A stretch of DNA of 39,507 nucleotides from Desulfobacula sp. (GTDB lineage Bacteria > Desulfobacterota > Desulfobacteria > Desulfobacterales > Desulfobacteraceae), in assembly GCF_030145145.1 (NCBI RefSeq), contig NZ_JAQYWD010000046.1, positions 1 to 39,507 on the forward strand. The letters run 5' to 3'. Below the pieces are notes generated by a model. It had not been told where the DNA came from. It saw only the letters and a program-made list of their open reading frames with translations, and did not search any database. The first letter of the stretch is position 1. Each line of letters begins with the position of its first letter. Shown piece after piece: positions 2,918 through 5,548 of the stretch. A program made the position numbers and the translations under genes.

Positions 2918-3042
2918 GGTTTACTCCTTTTTTAAATTAAATAAAATTTGATCTTAACTATGTTAAAACCAGTAATTTATTCAAAATACAATGTCAAGCT
3001 CTTTTTTTATAAGTTACTGAAATAAATATTAAAAAGTTGAAG

Positions 3043-3109
3043 AAAGTGTTGACACTTTGTAAAATTACATATAATCGGTTACTATATTTTTTCAAAGTGT
3101 CAACGCTTT
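3043..3109. promoter_or_regulatory. Paired palindromic operator-like sites
   Basis: AAAGTGTTGACACTTTG at 3043-3059 is repeated in inverted orientation at 3093-3109 with a single mismatch. Each copy is itself nearly a palindrome (AAAGTGT..ACACTTT), as expected of a dimeric repressor site. The left copy contains the -35 hexamer of a rightward promoter candidate. The pair lies between divergent transcription units, the leftward 56-codon/HUH/terminase block and the rightward Rha block, so it probably controls one or both. Confidence 0.5.
3049..3075 (+). promoter_or_regulatory. Candidate promoter of the Rha locus
   Basis: TTGACA at 3049-3054 and TATAAT at 3070-3075 both match the sigma-70 consensus exactly but are separated by 15 bases rather than 17. 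The -35 lies inside the palindrome at 3043-3059, so a bound repressor would block it. A transcript from here would carry the palindromic remnant box at 3122-3163 in its leader. Confidence 0.45.
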
Positions 3110-3121
3110 TTTGACTTTTTA

Positions 3122-3189
3122 GTAAAAGAATTTAGCCAATTCAAAATTGAATTGGCTAACTATCTGGATAAACAGGGAAAAATCAATCC
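3122..3189 (+). pseudogene. Rha box remnant in the leader of the first Rha gene
   Basis: In frame 2 this reads VKEFSQFKIELANYLDKQGKIN, which aligns column for column with the EFNQLNFELVEY...DKKG segment of the downstream Rha genes. No start codon or preceding domain remains, so it is a leftover copy. Its palindrome has 13-bp perfect arms (3132-3144 / 3147-3159). Its core is AAAATT, the reverse complement of the AATTTT core in the other copies, so it encodes KI where the others encode NF. It ends where the ATG of the first Rha gene begins. Confidence 0.6.
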
Positions 3190-3672
3190 ATGCCGATACC
3201 GTCCATTGAATTGCCGGAAGGCCTTGTTACCCTGGGTGAAGACGGCAAGCTCACCACCACCAGCCTGAAGGTTGCTGAAGTGTTCGGGAAGCGGCATGGC
3301 AATGTTGTCAGGGACATTCAATATCTTGAATGTAGTAAAGAATTCAACCAACTCAATTTTGAGTTGGTTGAATATATGGATAAAAAAGGGGAGCTTAGGC
3401 CAAGTTATGGGAAAGAACACAAGAATGTAATTAGAATTATCAAAAGTCTTAACTGCAATGAAGAATATGGTCGGCTCAATTTTGAGCCCACTAACTATCT
3501 GGATAAACAGGGAAAAACAAAACCCTTAACTGTCGTTTTGAATTTAGAGCGGGAAATTTTTCCCGCTCTAAATTCAAAAGCCTTGATTGTAGTGCGTCTT
3601 TCACTGGCGTTAATTTTAACGCCAGTGAATATAAAGACTCAACTGGCCGACTTTTACCTTGCTATAATATAA
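3190..3672 (+). CDS. Rha-type phage regulatory protein, mosaic/truncated copy
   Basis: The 160-residue frame begins MPIPSIELPEGLVTLGEDGK and then shows the Rha N-terminal domain: TTTSLKVAEVFGKRHGNVVRDI, CSKEFNQLNFELVEY, DKKGELRPSY. Rha proteins of temperate phages act as DNA-binding antirepressor or regulatory factors. After PSY the sequence jumps into the middle of a second copy (GKEHKNVIRIIKSLNC...EEYGRLNFEPTNYLDKQGK), consistent with recombination between repeats. The normal Rha C-terminal half is absent, and the last 45 or so residues look like out-of-frame readthrough of the next copy. An AGGG about 12 bases upstream is a weak ribosome site. It is expressed from the promoter candidate at 3049-3075 if at all. 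Confidence 0.6.
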   Translation: MPIPSIELPEGLVTLGEDGKLTTTSLKVAEVFGKRHGNVVRDIQYLECSKEFNQLNFELVEYMDKKGELRPSYGKEHKNVIRIIKSLNCNEEYGRLNFEPTNYLDKQGKTKPLTVVLNLEREIFPALNSKALIVVRLSLALILTPVNIKTQLADFYLAII

Positions 3673-3905
3673 CCCGTGACGGTTTCACCACCACCAGTTT
3701 GAAGGTTGCTGAAGTGTATGGGAAGCGACATGACCATGTAATTGAAAAAATTAAAGGGCTTAATTGCAGTAAAGAATTTAACCGCCTTAATTTTAGGGGC
3801 GTTGAATATATTGATAAAAAAGGGGGACTTAGGCATAGTTCTATATTCAACCAGGGAGGTTTTTCCCTGGTTGAATATAGGAGCTTAGACCATCTTATGA
3901 AATGA
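3507..3905 (+). pseudogene. Internal Rha segments in another frame, no start codon
   Basis: Frame 3 is open from 3507 to the TGA at 3903-3905 and is clearly Rha-like: LNCRFEFRAGNFSRSKF, then LDCSASFTGVNFNASEY, STGRLLPCYNITRDGF, TTTSLKVAEVYGKRHDHV, CSKEFNRLNFRGVEY and IFNQGGFSLVEY. It overlaps the 3190 gene out of frame, so a one-base change in the A-rich stretch near 3511-3524 would join them. No ATG starts it. The stop overlaps the ATG of the next Rha gene (ATGA). The order of pieces is abnormal, with partial units fused at or near the palindromic boxes, so I treat it as a broken or shuffled copy. Frameshifted expression cannot be excluded. Confidence 0.55.
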
Positions 3906-4339
3906 CCCGTGACGGTTTCACCACCACCAGTTTGAAGATCGCTGAAGTTTACGGGAAAGATCATTCCAATATTATAAAAAAGATTCTCGGACTCAATTGC
4001 AGTGAGGAATTTAGCCGCGTAAATTTTAACGCGGCTAACTACCTGAGTAAACAGGGTAAAATGATACCTATGTATAATATAACCCGTACAGGCTTCGCCT
4101 TTTTGGTTGGAAAATTTTCCGGAAAGAAGGCCGGTTTATTTATGGAACAATTCATTGCAGTTTTTAACGCCATGGAAAAAGCCCTGATGCAACCCACGGT
4201 GACCAGTGCACCCGTTGTATATCAAACCGACCCGGCATTGAAACAGGCCCTTGTTTCAATGGCTGAAATGCAAAGACACAATGATAAAAATGACGAAAAT
4301 GATAAAGGGAAAACCAGACCGGGAATATCAAGGTTATAA
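3902..4339 (+). CDS. Rha family transcriptional regulator, most complete copy
   Basis: The 145-residue product has an N-terminal Rha domain (FTTTSLKIAEVYGKDHSNIIKKI, CSEEFSRVNFNAANY, PMYNITRTGFAFLVGKF) followed by the conserved C-terminal part GKKAGLFMEQFIAVFNAME and a polar tail rich in N, D and K. It is the only copy with the full order of domains. Its beginning, MTRDGFTTTSLK, looks like a fusion: the MTRDGF is normally found after the PxYNI motif inside the protein, and the same DNA (CCCGTGACGGTTTCACCACC onward) occurs in the preceding copy at 3673-3704. The ATG overlaps the previous stop (ATGA), suggesting coupling. The palindrome at 4011-4038 lies inside it. Confidence 0.68.
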   Translation: MTRDGFTTTSLKIAEVYGKDHSNIIKKILGLNCSEEFSRVNFNAANYLSKQGKMIPMYNITRTGFAFLVGKFSGKKAGLFMEQFIAVFNAMEKALMQPTVTSAPVVYQTDPALKQALVSMAEMQRHNDKNDENDKGKTRPGISRL

Positions 4340-5300: not shown

Positions 5301-5548
5301 TTATGATTTCCTCTATGTTTAGCGTTAACCTGAATGAATGCAGATCATGGGTTACCTCACAAACCGTAACATTTACTTTCTTCCTTTAATGCTAAGAATC
5401 ATCCATCCTTTTACAAGTCCAGTGGTACAGGAAAAAACTTCCCAGATACTGGATTCTGTTGCAACACAAAAAAAAATTCGCATTTTATTGTTATTTTTGG
5501 TAACTATTAGTTAATTTGAGTATTATTTTTTCTGACCATATTTATTTC
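5301..5548. other. Divergent intergenic region between HsdR_N-like gene and wtpA
   Basis: The region is AT-rich and noncoding. An inverted repeat GTTAC (5351-5355) / GTAAC (5366-5370) with a 10-base gap is the only symmetric motif noticed. It could be an operator for a molybdate/tungstate regulator, but I see no sequence that I can assign to a known ModE or TunR box. Confidence 0.25.

Follow-up and report, generated by a model that had tools for sequence, protein, structure and literature searches.

Sites of regulators and initiators are known from within coding sequence: the replication origin of phage lambda lies inside gene O, and operators lie inside lacZ and galE. Intragenic operators and autoregulation are, in that sense, already known; in the LacI family the operators are mostly found outside of the regulator's gene. 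The Rha proteins of phages phi80 and P22 belong to the Pfam family Phage_pRha (PF09669), which PMC10111431 groups with the ORF6N, KilA-N, Bro-N and AntA families as the Bro network. The DNA considered here is a 39,507-nt stretch from Desulfobacula sp. (NCBI RefSeq assembly GCF_030145145.1, contig NZ_JAQYWD010000046.1, positions 1 to 39,507 of the forward strand), referred to as the window. It holds eight palindromic boxes, B1 to B8, all inside positions 3132-4044 and within Phage_pRha gene copies or fragments (middle bases 3145/3146, 3357/3358, 3480/3481, 3557/3558, 3614/3615, 3791/3792, 3860/3861 and 4024/4025). The copies are members of the family, with profile scores of 78.5 bits at 3902-4339, 71.1 at 3190-3672 and 38.3 at 3699-3905 against a cut-off of 29.9.

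We propose that each palindrome is very probably the operator for the Rha product of the gene in which it lies. Judging from sequence, binding of Rha to its own dyad seems, if anything, slightly more secure than that, and negative autoregulation would be the probable, less certain, main use of the site. The dyad, its conservation, the relation between protein residues and arm bases, and the scarcity of the site in nearby DNA are results of computation.

Paired arms across the Rha family

The original prediction held that the DNA encoding a repeated protein box is palindromic about the boundary between an N and an F codon (N|F), and that the inner arms differ from copy to copy while staying self-complementary. 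All eight palindromic boxes are present in the window, and the inner arms do vary among them, each complemented by its own partner arm; three details needed correction, in that B1 is centered on AA and encodes F-K rather than N-F, B6 is imperfect, and B7 lacks the N codon. The further claim, that the pairing is constrained and would not survive ordinary divergence, is borne out. In 70 unique first-domain boxes, 7.06 of the nine pairs 3-11 are matched, compared with 3.85 (standard deviation 0.17) when right arms are swapped between sequences and 3.64 under synonymous recoding; for 153 boxes the figures are 7.20 observed and 3.99 (standard deviation 0.11). The paired fraction in the 70 boxes is 0.87-0.91 at pairs 3-6 and 9-10, where column composition leads one to expect 0.33-0.43 (0.79 at pair 5), and pairs 7 and 8 are loose (0.41 and 0.54). 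In 72 of 81 boxes with Leu (CTN) at residue -1 and E, Q or K at residue +1, the third position of the Leu codon, though silent, complements the first position of the +1 codon, and we know of no protein-level constraint that would account for this match. When synonymous recoding is applied to the whole domain at p 0.05, 42/72 and 46/76 Rha genes stand out, and only 7/25 in a viral set (loci L212-L314); this test is weak for Rha because the residues themselves dictate part of the palindrome.

The dyad is widespread. Three more contigs of the same genome carry rha genes whose dyads have other sequences. A survey of genomes of the same family, 80 IMG/VR contigs, phages phi80 and mEp460, and an Aeromonas phage yielded 81 distinct boxes. 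In 66 of these, 7 or more of the 11 inner pairs around N|F are matched, and the remaining 15 comprise nine second-domain boxes and six others, some of them weak matches. Since the nine second-domain boxes pair at only 4-6 of 11 positions, the dyad of two-domain Rha proteins is confined to the first domain. When one genome per species was taken (80 loci from Desulfobacterota, Proteobacteria, Bacteroidota, Firmicutes and others), 81 hits reduced to 78 unique boxes, 66 of them with at least 9 of 11 inner pairs: 11 pairs in 13 boxes, 10 in 25, 9 in 28, 8 in 9, 7 in one and 4 in two. The rha genes of known phages share the dyad to differing degrees, with 10 of 11 pairs in Bordetella phage PHB09, 9 in HK639, 7 in phi80 and a poor 5 in P22. 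A look at rha homologs elsewhere, which the original prediction had put forward as its check, thus finds palindromes, each with its own matched arms. A dyad of at least 9/11 is found somewhere in the domain in 65/76 of the species set compared with 24/332 random windows, and in 36/80 of the viral set compared with 16/310.

Residues that predict the arms

Arm bases can be predicted from the protein. We derived a residue-base code from hits that spanned 70 or more of the 89 model columns and paired at 7 or more of 11 positions (198 hits, 134 of them non-redundant). Among these 134 Rha sequences, helix residue 17 predicts pair 6 (K goes with G in 57/57 and D with C in 48/50), helix residue 18 predicts pair 4 (N with T, 72/72), and wing residue 46 predicts pair 10 (K with A, 50/51). 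Altogether residues 17, 18, 21, 46, 48 and 50 predict arm bases, and none of them is encoded by the palindrome itself. The sequence of the site agrees with the specificity residues of the protein, as it should in an autogenous operator, and the dyad lies inside the regulator's own gene, as it should in an intragenic one.

Kinship was controlled by comparing pairs of proteins at least 80% identical elsewhere, the pairs being disjoint within each class. A changed residue was accompanied by a changed base in 13/13 pairs for residue 17, 12/13 for 18, 11/12 for 21, 16/19 for 46, and 11/17 for 48 taken with 50; where the residue was the same, so was the base, in 21/21, 21/21, 13/13, 18/18 and 18/18 pairs, respectively. 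At the 70% level, the base-change rate was 0.86-0.93 when contact residues differed and 0-0.13 when they agreed. The 38 other variable columns gave means of 0.39-0.55 when differing (best single column 0.74-0.86) and 0.30-0.55 when agreeing (lowest 0.15-0.26). The code also carries over between data sets: trained on the viral and family set, it predicted half-site bases of the species set with an accuracy of 0.85-0.95 per base, compared with 0.16-0.72 for guessing the commonest base, and the reverse training gave 0.74-0.96 compared with 0.21-0.57. The gain over guessing is small at pair 3 and large at pairs 9 and 10. This comparison used no pairing filter, and it excluded second-domain Rha and, per pair, 0-11 proteins with a residue unseen in training.

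Where the best predicted site falls was determined with a table written by hand from the 134-Rha code. The table residues allow a prediction for 173 of 256 unique Rha proteins; the best match in the whole locus is in the Rha domain for 165 of the 173 and exactly at N|F for 140, a figure that is partly circular given the origin of the table. Only two members of the viral set had entered the code set. There the best site is in the domain for 23 of 25 predictable Rha proteins, compared with 102/311 for swapped codes, and 18 of those 23 sites lie 11-21 nt upstream of N|F and hence in other codons. The first examples of such shifted sites were single phage genes of Staphylococcus and Lactococcus.

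Outside of the domain the site is scarce. Among 75 Rha proteins whose loci span 8 kb or more, sites matching at 14/16 or better were confined to Rha genes, 13/16 sites were no commoner than with other codes, and no second neighborhood site rose above chance. Genome-wide, with up to three mismatches, the Rha site is confined to rha genes in four of five genomes and absent from the fifth; a 28-bp KilA-N palindrome, searched likewise, occurs once per genome in 5/5 genomes, inside the KilA-N match. Across those ten genomes, near-exact copies are found only in genes of the site's own family. In phi80 an exact copy is present in rha alone; the rest of the sequence gives one hit with two mismatches, compared with two for a reversed control. 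When the pattern was relaxed, a Bordetella phage and one viral record still gave no hit besides the own site; in three bacterial genomes (L185, L199 and L207) it gave 8, 39 and 55 hits on both strands compared with 1, 11 and 16 for the reversed pattern, a three- to eightfold excess that may reflect either composition or real extra sites. The density of strong Rha-type dyads, with neighboring copies counted more than once, falls from 27.3 per 10 kb in the domain to 3.5 over the 150 nt upstream and to 0.25-0.28 at a distance. Among the nine strong dyads upstream, the ones in L033, L117 and L192 do not come from a neighboring array copy; upstream sites matching their own code at 13/16 or better (3/115) are not above the null (12/733). 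A separate observation is that L207 has four tandem intergenic dyads at 5330-5430, centered on AATTTT and with differing arms, about 290 nt upstream of the rha-holding open reading frame (ORF); two of the four score as strong Rha-type.

Use of the site and rival explanations

We infer that a homodimer of the Rha DNA-binding domain, a helix-turn-helix with a wing, would occupy the dyad. In each half-site, pairs 3-6 would be read by recognition-helix residues 17, 18 and 21 and pairs 9-10 by wing residues 46, 48 and 50, with the loose pairs 7-8 falling between the two sets of contacts. On this model codon pairs change together because identical subunits read both half-sites, and a change of specificity needs both arms. 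Lying in the stretch of codons between helix and wing, the site would travel with the domain regardless of the fusion partner. Bound there, the dimer may block transcription of its own gene from within the gene. For a site that occurs mostly in the gene of its own regulator, autoregulation is the simplest function. Several points weigh against these proposals: in the viral set, which is part of the Rha family, the site is common but not universal; 57 of the 82 unique Rha proteins of that set gave no prediction; and, for autoregulation in particular, the distance of the dyad from the start codon varies.

The alternative that fares best accepts the site as Rha's own and gives it another main job, such as control of replication or packaging, or a self-address that marks the element's DNA. 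We regard it as possible, if tentative. The phi80 record notes inhibition of DNA synthesis in IHF-negative hosts under rha, the gene directly follows lysis genes in phi80 and P22 and is near an annotated endochitinase in HK639, the dyad moves with the domain and not with a promoter, and the lambda origin is a precedent for a replication site in coding DNA. Yet a similar in-gene dyad occurs in bacterial KilA-N and ORF6N genes, for which no replicon is known, and dyads close upstream of some rha genes suggest transcription control.

The original prediction leaned toward a palindrome-based diversity generator, in which snap-back synthesis on a hairpin copies one arm onto the other and so diversifies the protein. 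Pairing in B4 and B7 does extend past the usual box, as copying would leave it, and window boxes with similar flanks have different arms. Copying gives no reason, however, for arm bases being predictable from residues some 25-60 nt away, outside of the palindrome, and it leaves the loose pairs 7-8 between paired blocks unaccounted for. The code is also kept when the site falls in other codons, and in close relatives arm changes accompany helix or wing changes. We consider this origin of the pairing very improbable. Nor is a diversity-generating retroelement (a reverse transcriptase with template and variable repeats), for which no search was made, needed to explain the arms.

Equally hard to sustain is an RNA hairpin in the rha mRNA acting as an attenuator or in the control of processing or translation. 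The shape is kept while the sequence varies, and the perfect stems could fold. Structured RNA, however, shows compensatory changes that include G-U, and at pairs 3-6, 9 and 10 we count 835 Watson-Crick pairs, 16 G-T, 22 A-C and 45 others: G-T falls below the other mismatch classes and is not enriched in either strand, and the pairing constraint therefore acts on DNA. Further, the arm bases track helix and wing residues, the loose pairs 7-8 would lie inside the stem, and an Rfam scan of the window at gathering scores returned no match.

Recognition of the hairpins by a neighboring HUH protein, also suggested originally, is disfavored by the annotation around phage rha genes. Going by annotation only, the 3 kb around rha contain no HUH-named gene in LPM4, phi80 or mEp460, where the dyads pair at 9, 7 and 8 of 11 positions. 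LPM4 is the clearest case, with tail genes and one hypothetical protein as the neighbors of rha; mEp460 has a replication protein like that of SfV. Finally, the notion that the box is palindromic by chance, through protein-level coupling or codon bias, may be set aside: the conserved E-F, N-F and E-Y do determine some bases of both the outer and the inner arms, and recoding still leaves 3.64 of nine pairs, but 7.06 are observed, the silent Leu base is matched, the viral-set operators obey the code in other codons, and the nine unique second-domain boxes retain N-F while pairing so poorly.

The window array, related families and known systems

Own-code matches differ among the boxes of the window, which therefore holds a decayed array made up of fragments from six or more rha copies that differ in specificity. 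All ORFs, helix regions and wings given here are on the + strand, and the dyads carry no strand. B1 (3132..3159; 13-bp perfect arms) comes from a 5'-truncated copy and lies about 30 nt upstream of the ATG (3190) of the copy 2 ORF; it matches the copy 2 code at 8/10 and its own wing code at only 2/4. That ORF (3190..3672, 160 amino acids; PF09669 E 1.2e-19) fuses copy 2 to a truncated copy 3. Copy 2 has the recognition-helix region GKRHGNVVRDI (residues 13-23; 3286..3318) and the wing YMDKKGELRP (3373..3402), which together predict 10/10 bases of its box B2 (3342..3373; 15-bp perfect arms), its predicted operator. In copy 3, with helix region GKEHKNVIRII (3409..3441) and wing YLDKQGKTKP (3496..3525), the code predicts 8/8 bases of the putative operator B3 (3470..3491; perfect arms of 7 bp, 9/11 pairs). 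B4 (3536..3579) belongs to a truncated copy and has 21-bp perfect arms, its pairing exceeding the usual box. The helix part of copy 5 is gone; its wing, YKDSTGRLLP (3630..3659), by itself agrees with B5 (3600..3629; 14-bp perfect arms) at 4/4. Copy 6 (helix region GKRHDHVIEKI, 3720..3752) matches its imperfect dyad B6 (3776..3807; 8/11 pairs) at 5/8, and B7 (3841..3880) has 17-bp arms around six unpaired central bases, the N codon having become G. Copy 8, a 145-amino-acid ORF (3902..4339; PF09669 E 6e-22, profile positions 1-91 of 91), is the sole window copy with a complete Phage_pRha domain. Its helix region is GKDHSNIIKKI (3953..3985) and its wing YLSKQGKMIP (4040..4069); B8 (4005..4044) has 10/11 inner pairs, the single mismatch being pair 3, and matches the copy 8 code at 6/8, a score equaled by B1 and B3.

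In the truncated copies of B4 and B7 the palindrome overruns the usual box as if the flank of one arm had been copied onto the other, and snap-back copying in decayed genes is a possible origin of these long arms. Just upstream of the array, at 3032-3120, is an imperfect 36-nt inverted repeat with a TTGACA-like sequence, unlike the Rha-type site. The adjoining ORF at 1491-2471, which the original prediction called HUH, has no Pfam match and only a weak match to a PHROG replication-initiation family (E 0.032). Other arrays exist: a viral contig (L067:6900-9500) has four rha boxes in a row, with three Rha proteins whose predicted sites differ in specificity, and in another genome of the genus (L021:1430-1950) several dyads stand in a small array of rha copies.

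In-gene dyads are found in related families as well. ORF6N was first chosen as a negative control, proved to have dyads, and was replaced in that role by HTH_3 and Phage_integrase. With one 270-nt segment (trimmed at stops), a recoding null and p of at most 0.05, dyads were scored in 21/27 ORF6N, 20/22 KilA-N, 19/30 Bro-N and 5/6 AntA genes, compared with 0/29 for HTH_3 and 2/29 for Phage_integrase; the test skipped three ORF6N loci, one HTH_3 and one integrase, and its KilA-N genes are 22 of 30 fetched loci. Five of the Pfam families listed in PMC10111431 thus have in-gene dyads. The ORF6N dyad sits between helix and wing. In 37/45 clear-dyad sequences, with kinship uncontrolled, its bases track helix columns 26, 27, 29 and 30 (pairs 4, 7 and 8) and wing columns 81-88 (pairs 9-13); at pair 8, column 46 equals column 29 in strength. 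Covariation among 19 KilA-N sequences is too thin for contacts to be assigned. Bacterial KilA-N genes (L381-L408) have perfect or near-perfect 26-28-bp palindromes centered on GAATTC, with variable arms. When the profiles of Rha and ORF6N were compared, the probability came out at 1%, too low to establish homology, and a sequence search of PDB chains with Rha, ORF6N, KilA-N and Bro-N examples gave no match below E 0.16.

On balance we favor the view that the superfamily (pRha, ORF6N, KilA-N, Bro-N and AntA) is self-addressed, the DNA that encodes the domain being the domain's own binding site. If so, a single swap of about 150 bp would move protein specificity and cognate operator together, new regulatory specificities could arise and spread without ever being mismatched, and a residue-base table would make the targets of many uncharacterized members readable from sequence. 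For Rha itself, a common class of phage regulator for which sequence comparison finds no solved relative, the code yields a prediction of the target, can be tested at the bench, and suggests how domain-swapping proteins change specificity while keeping an operator. The dyads also counsel caution, as covarying palindromes in coding DNA are not necessarily RNA structure.

In a search limited to open-licence papers, neither an operator inside the gene nor a recognition code turned up for the Rha family, and novelty is to that extent provisional. The main text of the Bro network paper (PMC10111431) has no word beginning with palindrom. HK022 Roi, the subject of a 1996 paper by Clerget and Boccard, is, like phi80 Rha, a phage regulator tied to IHF. 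Its binding site may lie in its own gene; the HK022 frame that we take to be Roi, unannotated in the record, is a remote Rha match (12.4 bits) with 2/11 pairs at the aligned place. Residue-base rules were likewise sought within a regulator family in work on a LacI-family recognition code (PMC2978694); the Rha site, by contrast, falls within the coding sequence of the DNA-binding domain itself. Lambda O with its origin, and the lacZ and galE operators, resemble Rha in placing the site of a regulator or initiator in coding sequence, for lambda within its own gene, but they are single cases, whereas the Rha site is family-wide and co-evolves with the residues that would read it. What appears to be new is a family-wide case, resolved to the base, in which coding DNA is the cognate target and the two evolve together.
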